Of a stretch of DNA of 54,446 nucleotides, positions 20,148 through 26,526 are shown piece by piece. Location of the stretch: positions 1 to 54,446 of the forward strand of contig PWJZ01000070.1 in the NCBI GenBank assembly GCA_003559855.1, read 5' to 3'. This DNA is from Bacteroidales bacterium (GTDB lineage: Bacteria; Bacteroidota; Bacteroidia; Bacteroidales; UBA7960). How positions within the stretch are numbered: position 1 is the first letter of the stretch; every line of letters begins with the position of its first letter. Position numbers and translations under genes: made by a program. Below the pieces are notes generated by a model. That model saw only the letters and a list, made by a program, of their open reading frames with translations. It was not told where the DNA came from and searched no databases.

Positions 20148-20525
20148 ATGAAAAAATTATTTATTTTATTTGCGTTCGCTGCTTTTTTAATATTTCCGGC
20201 ATGCGAAGTTATTGAAGAGCACTCTGTTAAATTCACAGTTTTTGATGAAGAATTAAACCCGGTTGAAAATGCTGAAATTTACATTGAGGGAGAAGAACCT
20301 TTAACTACCAATGTTGACGGAAAAGCTGCCATCGAGCTTAGAGAGGGAGATTATTCTTTCGACGTATCAGCTGAAGGATTTTTGCCTTTAACAGATCAGA
20401 AATTTAAGCTGAAGGAAGAAGACAAGGAACTTGAGCTTGCACTTGTTTCAGACATTGAAGTAGAAGAGGAAGAAGTAGAAGAGGAAGAAGTAGAAGAGGA
20501 AGAAGTAGAAGAGGAAGAAGAATAG
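20148..20525 (+). CDS. small lipoprotein with acidic repeat tail
   Basis: A 125-residue protein with a lipoprotein signal (MKKLFILFAFAAFLIFPAC, Cys19). It then has one beta-sandwich resembling the carboxypeptidase-regulatory or PEGA type (about residues 28-100: VFDEELNPVENAEIYIEG and GDYSFDVSAEGFLPL). Its tail is made only of Glu and Val, encoded by a 15-bp tandem repeat. The fold is inferred from the pattern of Gly and hydrophobic residues. The tail may bind cations or act as a spacer. A terminator follows. Confidence 0.65.
   Translation: MKKLFILFAFAAFLIFPACEVIEEHSVKFTVFDEELNPVENAEIYIEGEEPLTTNVDGKAAIELREGDYSFDVSAEGFLPLTDQKFKLKEEDKELELALVSDIEVEEEEVEEEEVEEEEVEEEEE
20457..20521 (+). repeat. 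15-bp tandem repeat coding an EVEEE tail
   Basis: GAAGTAGAAGAGGAA is repeated four times and trails off into more GAA/GAG codons just before the stop. The unit is a multiple of three, so gain or loss of copies keeps the frame. Confidence 0.85.
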
Positions 20526-21062: not shown

Positions 21063-22775
21063 ATGGAAAAAGCTTTGAGAATAAATAATTCGAAGCATTC
21101 TGTATTGTCAGAAATAACTTCTCTGTTTTTTGAAATTGAAAATAAGATAATTTCATTAAATCAGTGTTCTTCGGATGATTTTCAGGAGCTTAATAACTTG
21201 ATAAAAGCTAATTTGTCAATTTCAAAAATAGTGTCCTCCAACATTGAATTGATTTTTGAATTATCTGGCAAGGATGGCAACAGGGAATACCTGGAACAGA
21301 TATATGAACATATAAGTACTTTAAAACTGCACCTTGATGAACTGGAAGAAGTTTTTGATGTTTCTGTTAAATCGTTTGACGGTTTAATAAAACATCTAAA
21401 TATGATATCCGCACCACTGAATAATTTCAATCAAAATTTGTCATCTTTAAAGCTTTTACTAGCCAATCTGAAACTTATTTCTACGTGTTGCAGCCGAAAT
21501 CCGGATGGTTTCAATGTTGAAGAATCCGACCTGATAGAAAAAACCATTGGTAAGGTTAAAAACGTATGCCCGATTATAGATGAAAACATTTACGTTTTGA
21601 AAGGCCACCTGGAAAAAACAAAAGAAGATATTCTGAGCCTGAAAAACAAAAAACTGCCGGATCTGAGAAAAAACGCCGAAATAACGCAAGTCGATATAAA
21701 AGAAATTATAAGCCTTACAGACAAAGCATTAAAGGAAAAGCCCCCAATAGAAAAATTAATTAAAAGTCTTAGGAATGATCTGAATAACACATTACCTGTT
21801 TTACTCAAACAGGATGACATTTGCCGTGACGTTGAGATATTTCATAAAACTCATGATGCAATATTAAAAGAATTGGTAATGGTTAAGGCTGATAATGAAA
21901 ATTCAGCAATTAACAATTTCAGTAACAAGTTGAATAAACTGCAAATACCCAGGATCTCGGATAATCAGATTTCAAGAATTTTAAGTATCAATGAACAATA
22001 CCAGTGTTCGGTGGAGAAAATTACCAACGAAATGATAAACAGCAAAAACGGAATAAAAGAGATATTTACCAGGTCGGAGAAGTTTTTATTGAATAATAAA
22101 AACATAGATAATACATGTGCCGATAAACATTTTGAAAGTTTTAACCGGAAGCTGTCGGAGTTTATGGAAGGATATTTTAAATATACAGACGAAATAGTTA
22201 TTATAAACAGGGTTGTTAACGAGCTTTATGAGAAATTTTCAGATGTTGAAATGATAGAAAACGCCATTGAGCAAAGAATTATTGATAAGATTTACGTTGG
22301 TGAATTACTGATAAGATCAGAAGAAGAAATAGCAGGGCAAGCGCAAAACATATTTAAGATATATTGCGATAATCACATTCATAAAAGCAAGTTGATAAGG
22401 ATTTTTGGCGATGCAATTGAAGCAATTAATGAATCTATACGTGCTAATGCGGCTTTTTCTTTCAAAAATGGCAATGTTAATTGTTTTGAGTCAAAATTGA
22501 AAGATTTCAAAAAAGAATTTGAAAAGTTTGACTCCAACAGGCAATTAATAAATAAAAAATATATTGAAGCAGCAGAGCAGGAGCAACAATTTACCGAAAA
22601 CGTGAATAATGCAGTAAACCAAACAAAATATTATGGTTTTTTCGATAATACAGTAAAACAGGTTGTTTTGCTACTTGAGAATATTAATGAAAAGATAAAA
22701 TCAGATGTTGTAAAACAGGTCAATAACGAGCCTAACTATCAGAAATTGAACGAGAGAGAATTTGCAATTAAATAA
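21063..22775 (+). CDS. large coiled-coil protein of the signalling cluster
   Basis: A 570-residue, mostly alpha-helical cytoplasmic protein with no signal peptide or membrane helix. Hydrophobic heptads run through most of it. Around residues 245-270 the segment LLKQDDICRDVEIFHKTHDA resembles the Gln/Asp-rich helix of CheZ-like phosphatases and chemoreceptor-like helical proteins; this is a weak similarity by eye. It shares an operon with an HPt-like protein and a hybrid kinase, so a scaffold, sensor or phosphatase role in that pathway is plausible. No family can be named with confidence. Confidence 0.6.
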   Translation: MEKALRINNSKHSVLSEITSLFFEIENKIISLNQCSSDDFQELNNLIKANLSISKIVSSNIELIFELSGKDGNREYLEQIYEHISTLKLHLDELEEVFDVSVKSFDGLIKHLNMISAPLNNFNQNLSSLKLLLANLKLISTCCSRNPDGFNVEESDLIEKTIGKVKNVCPIIDENIYVLKGHLEKTKEDILSLKNKKLPDLRKNAEITQVDIKEIISLTDKALKEKPPIEKLIKSLRNDLNNTLPVLLKQDDICRDVEIFHKTHDAILKELVMVKADNENSAINNFSNKLNKLQIPRISDNQISRILSINEQYQCSVEKITNEMINSKNGIKEIFTRSEKFLLNNKNIDNTCADKHFESFNRKLSEFMEGYFKYTDEIVIINRVVNELYEKFSDVEMIENAIEQRIIDKIYVGELLIRSEEEIAGQAQNIFKIYCDNHIHKSKLIRIFGDAIEAINESIRANAAFSFKNGNVNCFESKLKDFKKEFEKFDSNRQLINKKYIEAAEQEQQFTENVNNAVNQTKYYGFFDNTVKQVVLLLENINEKIKSDVVKQVNNEPNYQKLNEREFAIK

Positions 22776-22785
22776 AAAAAACCTG

Positions 22786-23220
22786 ATGAATTCAAAATTT
22801 ACTAATAATAATTTGTTTGTTTTAACAAACGAAAATATTAAAACCACTGACAATTATGATCTGGCGGAATATGACAAACACCATGTGGTTGAAATGAAAA
22901 CTTTTGATATGATCAAAAAACAATCGGAGGATAACGATTCAATCATAAGGGATATTTATTTGTCATATTTTTCACAGGCAGAGGTTTTGATAAAGCTTAT
23001 CAATGGACATATTGACAGAAACAGGTATGATAAGTTGAGACCTTCAACCCAATCATTGTTGGAACTTTCCGCAGTAGTTGGTGCAGCTAAACTTAAGGAG
23101 GTGATCAAGGATACCGTGTATGCATTGATGAGAAGTGAGTATGAAAAAGTTTCGCGGTTAACGCCGGTATTAAACTCATCATACAATGAATTTAAGAAAT
23201 CGATAAACGAAATGATATAG
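22786..23220 (+). CDS. HPt-like protein lacking the phospho-histidine
   Basis: A 144-residue protein whose start is taken as the ATG at 22786, 10 bp after the coiled-coil gene. A longer ORF from TTG 22762 would overlap that gene. Residues about 40-144 follow the helical pattern of a histidine phosphotransfer domain, including the conserved back part LSAVVGAAKL at 94-103. At the position of the phosphorylated histidine in (A/T)HxLKG it has TQSLLE, with Gln89 for His and Leu-Glu for Lys-Gly. It cannot carry a phosphoryl group by the usual chemistry and may be a docking decoy. The domain call rests on pattern only. Confidence 0.6.
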   Translation: MNSKFTNNNLFVLTNENIKTTDNYDLAEYDKHHVVEMKTFDMIKKQSEDNDSIIRDIYLSYFSQAEVLIKLINGHIDRNRYDKLRPSTQSLLELSAVVGAAKLKEVIKDTVYALMRSEYEKVSRLTPVLNSSYNEFKKSINEMI

Positions 23221-23249
23221 AATATTGTTGAATTATTACTTTATACATC

Positions 23250-25991
23250 ATGTTAAACAAGATCCTGCTTGTTGAAGACGAAACATCAACATCTAATTAT
23301 ATTTATCATAAGCTGGAGCAATTGGATTGCGATGTATTGGCCAAGGCAAGCAACAATAAGGATGCGATCAGGATGGCAAGGGAGCTTAAGCCGAATTTGA
23401 TCCTGATGGATATTTTTCTTGAGGGCGAAACAGATGGCATTGATACTGCTTCGCAGATACTTTCTTTTCTGGATGTTCCTGTGGTATTTATTACCGAGCG
23501 ATCAGACGAGGATACCATTAAACGTTTAATGAGAATTGAACCTAATGCTTTTATCATAAAGCCTTTTGATGAACGTATATTACGCTCGGCAATCAACATT
23601 GCAATTTACAGGCATCAAACCAAAAAAGAACTTCTCCAGGCTAAGGAAATGCTTCGCACTACTTTAGAATCTATTGATGATATAATAATTTCTTTTGATA
23701 ACGAAGGACACCTGACATATATACATTCAAATCAAAGGATACCCTTTTTTACATCCGGCAACCAGTTGCAAAAGCATTATAACGAGGTTTTCCCTAATTA
23801 TCTCGTAAGCTTGCTTGATGTTTGTTTTGATAATGTGATGAAAACAAAAAAAGTACAGGAGTTTGAATTTGAAATGCAAATAAAAAACTCTGTCAGGTGG
23901 TTCCAGGCAAAAGCATCCTTAAGAAAAGATGCGACCGGAAAAGCTATAGGTGTTACTTTGCTGGTCGGCGATATATCAAAACAAAAGAAGCTTGAAAAAG
24001 AACTAAAGGGTTACAGTGAAAAACTGAAGGAAGCACATGAGGTGACACAACTTGGGACTTGTGTAATTGATTTTTCAAAGAACACATTTACTCATAATGG
24101 AATATTCTTTGAATTGCTTGATATTGAAGATTATGATGATATTAAGAGCCATGATGATGAGAAAATTTTAAGGTCAATATATTATGAAGATAAAATCAGG
24201 TATGTTGATTATCATAAAGATGTCTTTAAGAAAAATGTCAGAAAATTTTCCATTGATTTCCGTATAGTTGATAAAAGGAAAAACATAAGGTACATACATT
24301 CGGTTGGTAAAGTAGATTATGATATGAATAATAATCCGGCTTTCATGTTGCTGACCATTCAGGATGTTTCCTGGCAAAAGCAAAGCCAGCAGCTTTGGAA
24401 GGATTTATTTACAGCGCGCAAGGCAGCCGAGATCAAGCAACAGTTTTTCACGAATGTCAGCTATCAGTTGAGAACTCCGCTTACTGAAATAATCGGCATG
24501 ACAGAGCTTTTAAATACAACAGATCTTAAGCCTCATCAGAAGAAATATCTGTCAACATTGCGAAATTCATCTGAAACGCTTATTAACATGATAAGCGACA
24601 TTTTGGATGTGTCAAGGATCGAGGCGGCGAAAATGGATCTCTATCCTGTCGAATATGATATAAGGAAAGATATAGAAAAAATATTTAAAGAATCACAACA
24701 TATTGCCGAAGAGAAGCAAATTGAGCTAAAATACACCGTCGATAGTAAATTACCCGATATACTGTTAGTGGATCAGAAACGCGTTAACCAGATCATAATT
24801 AATCTGATGTCGAATGCCTTGAAATTTACCAGCGAAGGTTCGGTAATTATCAGGGTAATGCACGTTTCAAAGAAAGGTAAGGAATTTACAATTCGTGTTG
24901 AAGTAGAAGATACTGGTGTCGGCATCAGGAAAGAAGACCATGCTGATCTGTTCAATGCATTTCAGCAAACATATCATAAAAGAAAACGCAGTTCATTGGG
25001 CTCGGGATTGGGTTTGTATATTTGCAAAAATCTGGTGAACCTTCTGGGAGGGGAGATTGGTCTGGATAGTGAAACCGGTCATGGAAGCACATTTTGGTTT
25101 ACATTTAAAGCCAGGGAATGTAAAGGATCAGTTGATACCAAAAGACCTGTTATAACCAAAGAATCCGTTCCTAAAGAGCTGGATATTTCTGTTCTTCTTG
25201 TTGAAGACAAGGAGGAAAACCAAAAGGTCCTTTCTCTGATGCTCGAATGTATTGGTTGTAATGTAGAGGTTGCTTCCAACGGTAAAGAAGCGATTGAGTT
25301 ATACCAGGAATCGATAGTTAATGCTTTCGGTATTTTTGGAAATACCGAATATGATATCATTATCATGGATATGTATATGCCGGTAATGGATGGCATAGCT
25401 GCCACACACGAATTGCGTGAAAATTTTGATGAACCGCCGCCAATAATTGGATTGAGCGCCAGCGTGTTAGACTGTAAAACCAAAGTCTACGAAGAATTGG
25501 GATTTGATGACTATTTGACCAAACCCGTGGAAATTGAAATACTTGCCAAGAAACTGTTCTATTGGAAAAATAAAAGAAAAAAACAACTGGCAAAAAAGAC
25601 TGTTGTCTCCGATGAAATGTTTATCAGAAATATAGAAAAATACCCGCTGATCAATGAACATACAATTAATAATATAATCAAAAACATTGGCGGAGATGCC
25701 CTTAACGTTAAAAAACTGATCAATTCCTTTAATGAAGACATGGACGATTATTATCAAAGATTCGTAAAAGCATTTAAAAATAATGATAAAAAAGTTCTTA
25801 AAAAGATAATAATGGATGTTAAAGGATTATCAGCTATTATTGGAGCTATACAGGTTTATGAGGTAACAAAAAAAATGGAATATCATGCCGAAGAAGAAAA
25901 CTTTGACCAGGTTAAAAAGCTTTTCAGGATCATGATAAATAAATACAGGATATTTAAGAATTATGTGGTAAAAAGATATCTGAAGCATTAG
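23250..25991 (+). CDS. hybrid sensor kinase with degenerate H-box
   Basis: A 913-residue cytoplasmic multidomain protein. Order: receiver 1 (about 1-120; Glu9, Asp10, phosphoacceptor Asp54, Thr82, Lys104), PAS (about 135-250), PAS (about 262-375), dimerisation domain (about 390-455), ATPase domain (about 495-620, N-box NLMSNALKF, G-boxes DTGVGI and SGLGLYI), receiver 2 (about 645-770, acceptor Asp707 in IIMDMYMP) and a C-terminal HPt-like domain (about 800-910). The H-box reads NVSYQLRTPL: Tyr405 replaces the autophosphorylated His and Gln406 the catalytic acid. The HPt motif reads IMDVKGLSAIIGA, with Met855 for His. Receivers and ATP site look functional while both histidines are gone. The ATG is directly before a normal receiver start. 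Confidence 0.9.
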   Translation: MLNKILLVEDETSTSNYIYHKLEQLDCDVLAKASNNKDAIRMARELKPNLILMDIFLEGETDGIDTASQILSFLDVPVVFITERSDEDTIKRLMRIEPNAFIIKPFDERILRSAINIAIYRHQTKKELLQAKEMLRTTLESIDDIIISFDNEGHLTYIHSNQRIPFFTSGNQLQKHYNEVFPNYLVSLLDVCFDNVMKTKKVQEFEFEMQIKNSVRWFQAKASLRKDATGKAIGVTLLVGDISKQKKLEKELKGYSEKLKEAHEVTQLGTCVIDFSKNTFTHNGIFFELLDIEDYDDIKSHDDEKILRSIYYEDKIRYVDYHKDVFKKNVRKFSIDFRIVDKRKNIRYIHSVGKVDYDMNNNPAFMLLTIQDVSWQKQSQQLWKDLFTARKAAEIKQQFFTNVSYQLRTPLTEIIGMTELLNTTDLKPHQKKYLSTLRNSSETLINMISDILDVSRIEAAKMDLYPVEYDIRKDIEKIFKESQHIAEEKQIELKYTVDSKLPDILLVDQKRVNQIIINLMSNALKFTSEGSVIIRVMHVSKKGKEFTIRVEVEDTGVGIRKEDHADLFNAFQQTYHKRKRSSLGSGLGLYICKNLVNLLGGEIGLDSETGHGSTFWFTFKARECKGSVDTKRPVITKESVPKELDISVLLVEDKEENQKVLSLMLECIGCNVEVASNGKEAIELYQESIVNAFGIFGNTEYDIIIMDMYMPVMDGIAATHELRENFDEPPPIIGLSASVLDCKTKVYEELGFDDYLTKPVEIEILAKKLFYWKNKRKKQLAKKTVVSDEMFIRNIEKYPLINEHTINNIIKNIGGDALNVKKLINSFNEDMDDYYQRFVKAFKNNDKKVLKKIIMDVKGLSAIIGAIQVYEVTKKMEYHAEEENFDQVKKLFRIMINKYRIFKNYVVKRYLKH

Positions 25992-25998
25992 CAGCTGA

Positions 25999-26526
25999 TT
26001 ACATATAAATATCAAGCAAACCATTTGGGGTAGTTACCAATATTTCTTTTAAGTCGCGTTTCACTTCTTTAATCAATTCATCACATACAGGTATCAAAAC
26101 TTCATTTTCATCACGTTCTATCTGAAAAAGAGGGTTGCCGGGATAATCAAGGACCTGCTTTATTTTCCCGATATATCCGTGACGGGTGTCATATACGGTA
26201 AATCCTTCAACTTCATGAAAATAAAACTGATTGCCCGATAATGGCGGCAGATTGTCTAACGGAAGGTGAATTTTGCAATTAATCAAATATTCCGCCTTTT
26301 TTTCATCGTCTATGTCCCTGAATCTGATAATTGCCTGGTTGCTGTTGGGCCGTAAAGATATTTTGTCAATAAAAAAAGGTACCAGCTTTTTGTCTATTAA
26401 AAGAAAAACAGAGTCAAGCCCGGAGTACTTTTCAGGATCATCAACATCCAGGATCATGATTAAGTCTCCTTTGTAGCCGAACTTTTTTGAAATAAAACCA
26501 AGGTAAAATGTGTCATCAATATTCAT
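25999..26526 (-). CDS. rimM: 16S rRNA processing protein RimM
   Basis: A 175-residue assembly factor for the 30S head that binds S19. The N-terminal domain has the family start FYLGFISKKFGYKGDLIM. The PRC-barrel-like C-terminal domain has VYDTRHGYIGKIKQVLDYPG and ends with TTPNGLLDIYM. Length is normal. It faces the kinase gene tail to tail with 7 bp between. rpsP, a frequent neighbour, is not in the window. Confidence 0.93.
   Translation of the reverse strand: MNIDDTFYLGFISKKFGYKGDLIMILDVDDPEKYSGLDSVFLLIDKKLVPFFIDKISLRPNSNQAIIRFRDIDDEKKAEYLINCKIHLPLDNLPPLSGNQFYFHEVEGFTVYDTRHGYIGKIKQVLDYPGNPLFQIERDENEVLIPVCDELIKEVKRDLKEILVTTPNGLLDIYM

Follow-up and report, generated by a model that had tools for sequence, protein, structure and literature searches.

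Positions 21063-25991 of the window (the whole stretch of 54,446 nucleotides that was analysed) hold three co-directional genes on the forward strand, encoding a 570-aa helical protein, a 144-aa protein with an HPt fold and a 913-aa hybrid kinase, and all three frames are open. The set has the outline of a phosphorelay, except that every position at which a phospho-accepting histidine is expected carries another residue. The questions are therefore where such a module comes from, and what it might still do.

The window is contig 78 of the host genome (G000), an assembly of 2.97 Mb in 131 contigs which is 96% complete. Relatives of the kinase, the HPt protein and the helical protein (here called the coil) were drawn from 47 genomes of the host family. 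The genus of the window was sampled as four genomes, namely G000 itself and G001, G002 and G003, whose kinases are approximately 53%, 61% and 64% identical to that of G000, respectively. The named relatives are Bacteroidales or Bacteroidetes MAGs, several of them from sediment according to their isolate names, from which we also take the setting to be soda lakes. The features are listed in Table 1. The name rimM is our reading of the protein encoded downstream. Just upstream of the triad, at 20148-20525, is a gene for a small secreted-looking protein with a C-terminal run of VEEEE repeats.

Table 1. Coordinates of the triad, its key residues and the adjoining gene in the window
Feature	Position	Strand	Basis
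Helical coil protein, 570 aa	21063..22775	+	Alignment, synteny; AF2 model all-helical, low confidence
HPt-fold protein, 144 aa, Gln89 for His	22786..23220 (ATG)	+	Alignment, model, fold search
Hybrid pseudo-histidine kinase, 913 aa, Rec-PAS-PAS-HisKA-HATPase-Rec-HPt	23250..25991	+	Pfam domains, alignment
Receiver 1 phospho-acceptor Asp54, intact	23409..23411	+	Alignment
H-box Tyr405-Gln406 (TAT CAG) for His-Glu	24462..24467	+	Codons; congeners have CAC/CAT CAA (His-Gln)
Receiver 2 phospho-acceptor Asp707, intact	25368..25370	+	Alignment
C-terminal HPt, Met855 at His position	25812..25814	+	Alignment with relatives
rimM-like gene, conserved neighbour, convergent with the triad and outside the system	25999..26526	-	BLAST orthology across genomes

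The kinase and the two HPt domains

Pfam matches in the kinase are to Response_reg (two stretches), PAS_4, PAS_3, HisKA (6e-18) and HATPase_c (9e-27). Those to HisKA, HATPase_c and the receivers are all above the Pfam cut-offs, while the Hpt match at the C-terminus is below threshold (0.034). The best NCBIfam matches are the BarA and TorS profiles, far below their cut-offs. Hybrid kinases of the BarA/TorS type have the same HisKA-HATPase-Rec-HPt order, but the window kinase differs from them in that all its phospho-His sites are replaced, in its extra N-terminal receiver and in its origin, which is probably a chemotaxis operon. According to the alignment, the nucleotide boxes N, G1, F and G2 are preserved, as are the Lys residues of the receivers and T409, which occupies the H+4 phosphatase position. 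Codon 405 (24462-24464) is TAT, encoding Tyr, which is one base from CAT, and is followed by CAG for Gln406. The protein has neither the phospho-acceptor His of the H-box nor the acidic residue after it, both of which are expected in a HisKA hybrid kinase. Its fold is conserved and its phospho-His replaced, as in a pseudo-histidine kinase (Pfam and alignment), and it is predicted to be unable to autophosphorylate at the canonical site. The replacements Tyr405-Gln406, Met855 and Gln89, together with the intact ATP-binding boxes and receiver aspartates, had been reported in the initial annotation, and codons, Pfam and alignment bear them out.

Of the 12 HisKA domains of G000, 11 keep the His, the window kinase being the sole exception. 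Across the aligned relatives the H-box is mostly SHEIRNP in other genera, SHQL[RK]TP in G001, G002 and G003, SYQLRTP in the window kinase and NNEIQNP in G013. Gln406 is thus common to all four members of the window genus, and Tyr405 is found in G000 alone; every other relative that retains the domain has the H-box His except G013, which has Asn. In CrdS, the E372Q mutant has no kinase activity and full phosphatase activity, and H371A keeps most of the phosphatase activity (PMC3510030). If this result applies here, the kinase would have been dead in the whole window genus before Tyr405 appeared, and Tyr405 would then have cost little. His-Gln alone is no proof of a dead kinase, because another HisKA protein of G000 (C61:13601-13750, L156) also has His-Gln in place of His-Glu (AHQLGTPL).

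In the C-terminal HPt of the family kinases the His column is occupied by M, V or L, and by His in none of the relatives found; reduced forms consisting of a receiver and an HPt have T, V or I. Since a hybrid kinase from a different family (G185, an outgroup) keeps His in its C-terminal HPt (IHTVKG), we infer that this His was lost before the forms of the host family diverged. On this view, kinases whose H-box is intact would pair a terminal pseudo-HPt with a true HPt encoded by the adjoining gene.

No usable Pfam match was found for the standalone HPt protein. Its model has a pLDDT of 86.6, and the first 27 Foldseek matches are all HPt proteins, with probabilities of 0.99-1.00 and E-values all >0.001; HPt profile A1 matches it at 2.4e-12. 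A four-helix HPt fold is confidently predicted. The open reading frame begins at TTG 22762 (152 aa), counted from which Gln89 would be residue 97. The residues at +2/+3 from Gln89 are Leu-Glu, where Ser/Ala-Gly is usual. Neither this protein (Gln89) nor the kinase C-terminus (Met855) has the phospho-accepting His of an HPt domain. In the standalone protein the His is kept in nearly all relatives, with Gln only in G000 and G001. Since G001 is a more distant relative of G000 than either G002 or G003, the simplest account is that Gln arose independently in G000 and in G001. When the HPt profile was searched across the whole order, the pseudo-HPt came up in the host family only; strong matches occurred in three further genomes, and in these the His is kept. 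The best fold matches of the window protein include plant HPt structures, and AHP6, an Arabidopsis pseudo-HPt which inhibits the cytokinin relay, is likewise an HPt without His (PMC3572949). The likeness between the two is taken to be convergent. Elsewhere in G000, a canonical standalone HPt with His (C123:13003-13368; L001, L120) occupies a 159-aa frame and is the only match of the Pfam Hpt search in the genome. It is a possible phosphate donor or partner.

A consistent loss of His throughout a conserved three-gene cluster, the test put forward at the outset, therefore holds for the cluster itself and for the C-terminal HPt, but is rejected at two of the three sites, the H-box and the standalone HPt, where relatives keep His. 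The replacement of every phospho-His is not a shared design: the relatives show separate events, and stepwise decay in the lineage of the window.

The chemotaxis operon beside rimM

The same locus is marked by rimM in genera g1, g4, g5 and g6, and a coil-HPt-kinase triad adjoins it in G000, G002, G003 and G013. In sister genera the HPt and the kinase lie within a chemotaxis operon next to rimM. The operon is complete in G059, where it runs coil-STAS-CheY-CheY-CheA-CheW-MCP-HPt-hybrid kinase-CheR-kinase-CheD-CheB and then rimM, the second gene encoding a 109-aa protein that we take to be STAS-like. In G007, Pfam places MCPsignal on the upstream side and CheR, a kinase, CheD and CheB on the downstream side. 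The last five residues of the operon MCP, EYEKF, resemble a tether.

G013 (100% complete) is nested in the genus of G059 and retains the triad at rimM, uninterrupted by che genes. Its coil is sister to the che coil of G017 (tree support 100/98). Because this coil groups with a che-operon coil, the G013 triad is read as a product of chemotaxis-operon erosion, and a coil-HPt-kinase triad evidently does arise in this way. Partial remnants are also seen: coil-STAS-HPt in G022 and G061, HPt with pseudoRec-pseudoHPt in G006, and pseudoRec-pseudoHPt only in g6. The triad of the window may likewise be a remnant, or may possibly have been separate from the che genes already when chemotaxis disappeared, because in G001 and G002 the che cluster lies elsewhere, with a second, motif-bearing coil. 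In some species of g1 and g8 the genome has both the triad and a separate che cluster. Proteins of 283-301 aa with a degenerate receiver and a His-less HPt are encoded next to rimM (L117:7888-8736, L118:3046-3894, L119:7876-8778 and L066:16628-17506), and they appear to be reduced, phospho-dead descendants of the hybrid kinase.

Alignment and synteny relate the coil protein, though divergent, to the product of the first gene in the chemotaxis operon of the family. That gene (in the operon at L114:2-13982 of G059, and in L053, L057, L060 and L067) encodes a helical protein of ~610 aa with YHDIIRQ and GNDVEFF. The che-linked copies read NLQYHDIIRQK and have the GNDVEFF tail wherever the end is present (that of G019 is cut by the contig), and in the alignment both motifs are seen in che-linked copies only. 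The window coil reads DDICRD where che+ relatives have the CheZ-like DxxxQ of YHDIIRQ, and its C-terminal GNDVEFF tail is absent; motif and tail are also missing in G003, the triad copy of G002, G013 (HDVIRR), G022 and G061.

DxxxQ is the active-site pattern of CheZ (PMC7750401; PMC3035606), and the che+ coil relatives resemble CheZ AxxF(Y)Q-DxxxQ (PMC7750401) in having a conserved D-x-x-x-Q after an aromatic-polar pair. Searches by sequence and fold gave no match to CheZ, and the window copy has lost the motif. The coil proteins are also long, at 570-620 aa, CheZ being much shorter. A coil profile searched against PDB chains gave coiled-coil noise only, and thus no support by sequence for the coil as a CheZ homologue. 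A 41-aa query containing the motif gave no match for CheZ similarity, and Pfam gave no consistent match across 11 coil members. The coil model, built from a 4-sequence alignment, was of low confidence (pLDDT 67.9, pTM 0.50), and no structure, CheZ included, matched it in fold at E <0.001. Because of these negative matches to CheZ, the che-operon coil with its DxxxQ and tether-like tail is put forward as a lead only, that is, as a candidate unrecognised CheY phosphatase of Bacteroidales.

Chemotaxis loss, constraint and the lost histidines

A genome search of G000 (96% complete) and G003 gave no match to CheW/CheA (PF01584) or MCP (PF00015); G001 and G002 gave matches to each. The H-box His, or the kinase core as a whole, has been lost in 6/7 genomes without chemotaxis (che-) and in 0/9 genomes with it (che+), the latter being the nine family genomes with a readable H-box and CheA (the CheA of G015 is a contig-edge fragment). 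The che- genomes comprise G000 (Tyr), G013 (Asn), the four without a kinase core (G006, G008, G062 and G014) and G003, which is che- yet retains the H-box His and thus speaks against the link with operon erosion. The tree places the losses in three separate places, implying about three independent events. Fisher's test gives p = 0.0009 raw, 0.005 with g6 counted as one and 0.014 by three loss clades against one, in each case ignoring kinship and for a small sample (16 genomes) of incomplete MAGs. The graded series at the rimM locus suggests that loss of the pathway precedes loss of the phospho-His, and makes this order testable.

The confinement of the losses to che- genomes is also what would be expected if the triad were a decaying relic, left jobless when chemotaxis was lost and now in the first stage of pseudogenisation, with catalytic residues lost at random and H405Y and Q89 neutral and recent. 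The differences between lineages in what is left (coil-STAS-HPt in G022 and G061, pseudoRec-pseudoHPt in g6) fit such decay, as do the dN values between G000 and G003, which are higher for the HPt (0.43) and the coil (0.42) than for the kinase (0.24). Against it, all three frames are open; for the window kinase the neutral expectation is ~6.6 stops per 0.05 substitutions/site, and none is observed. Further, of ~136 sites at which all the other kinases agree, only 2 differ in the window kinase, the second lowest count of 12; the corresponding counts are 6, 7 and 12 for the congeners and 11 for G013. This count of private changes took the place of a branch dN/dS, since comparison with the nearest relative showed saturation at synonymous sites (pS 0.77). 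Leaving the His aside, the kinase thus shows no relaxation of constraint. Finally, the pseudoRec-pseudoHPt proteins of G008 and G062 (g6), in which the HPt has no His and the receiver has lost the conserved acidic pocket along with further key residues, are under purifying selection as judged from this one close pair (dN 0.014, dS 0.059, p = 0.0045), which independently supports the view that such phospho-dead proteins can be kept. We consider decay rather unlikely as the explanation of the triad.

A kept non-catalytic role would explain the small number of private changes, but so, equally well, would a very recent H405Y or a consensus error. Tyr405 could be a strain-level mutation or an assembly error, a single C-to-T change in a population whose kinase keeps the His of the congeners (CAT/CAC), and the conservation of nearly everything else in the kinase would agree with this. 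It is improbable, given that G013 has independently lost the same His (to Asn), and that Gln406, Met855, Gln89 with its flanking residues and the loss of DxxxQ are independent of Tyr405 and mostly shared with relatives. Because of that independence, the relay would be degenerate even if Tyr405 were an error.

A putative role as a receiver reader

To our knowledge, only a handful of pseudo-histidine kinases from bacteria are well understood, DivL being the foremost. DivL acts in the CckA-CtrA cell-cycle pathway and, unlike the window kinase, has no receivers or HPt. DivL of Caulobacter (Tyr550) and the window kinase both have HisKA/HATPase and PAS domains, with Tyr in place of the phospho-His and the core folds kept; the relation is one of analogy, the likeness being known from the shared HisKA/HATPase core alone. 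Tyrosine autokinase activity was once proposed for DivL. Such an activity, in which Tyr405 would take phosphate from ATP in place of His, is very improbable for the window kinase even though Tyr can be phosphorylated and the ATP site is intact, since Gln406 removes the acidic neighbour, Asn at the site in G013 makes Tyr no shared solution, and purified DivL, which has Tyr at the H-box position and, without being a kinase, reads DivK~P, has no autokinase activity (PMC4211667).

On balance, we think that the window kinase is probably a DivL-like, non-autophosphorylating reader of receivers, possibly a phosphatase, left by the erosion of a chemotaxis-linked relay. Of the parts of this reading, the identity of the module and its chemotaxis-linked origin are highly probable, and a DivL-like mechanism of docking and sensing, which we infer by analogy, is tentative. 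Directly established are the residues at each site, the synteny, the missing genes and the constraint, and from them the order of events, the biochemical activity and the partners are inferred in the following scheme.

The relay module would have belonged to the chemotaxis operon, as it does in sister genera, and G000 would have lost the chemotaxis core. The His of the C-terminal HPt would have gone first, before the forms of the family diverged, followed by the change of the H-box Glu to Gln in the ancestor of the genus, and then by loss of the DxxxQ site of the coil within the genus lineage. The His of the standalone HPt would have been lost fourth, in the window species and separately in G001, and the H-box His would have become Tyr last, in the window species alone. 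What remains in the kinase is the ATP pocket, the dimerisation helices, T409 and both receivers. The receivers would be phosphorylated by another donor, for example via the canonical HPt on contig 123. The HisKA/HATPase core may then dock to and sense the phosphorylated receiver, signalling by conformation, with the pseudo-HPts serving as docking surfaces; the phosphorylated receiver might also be dephosphorylated through T409. The phosphatase is the weak part of this mechanism, since DivL is reported to have no phosphatase activity either.

A non-kinase scaffold or allosteric role, with receivers phosphorylated from outside, had been offered in the initial annotation. It is still the leading putative function, and the strong residual constraint adds support. 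We hold as quite doubtful the broader statement that a complete phosphorelay-shaped module, made up of hybrid kinase, HPt and a phosphatase-like partner but without any phospho-His, has been kept by selection after the loss of chemotaxis and works only by docking that depends on nucleotide and receiver state, the same rimM locus having independently given other phospho-dead products.

The locus beside rimM presents, within one family, a graded series from an intact che-operon kinase, through His-Gln and Tyr/Asn, to a kinase-less pseudoRec-pseudoHPt. The triad and its relatives are thus a natural series for what a 'dead' signalling relay still does.
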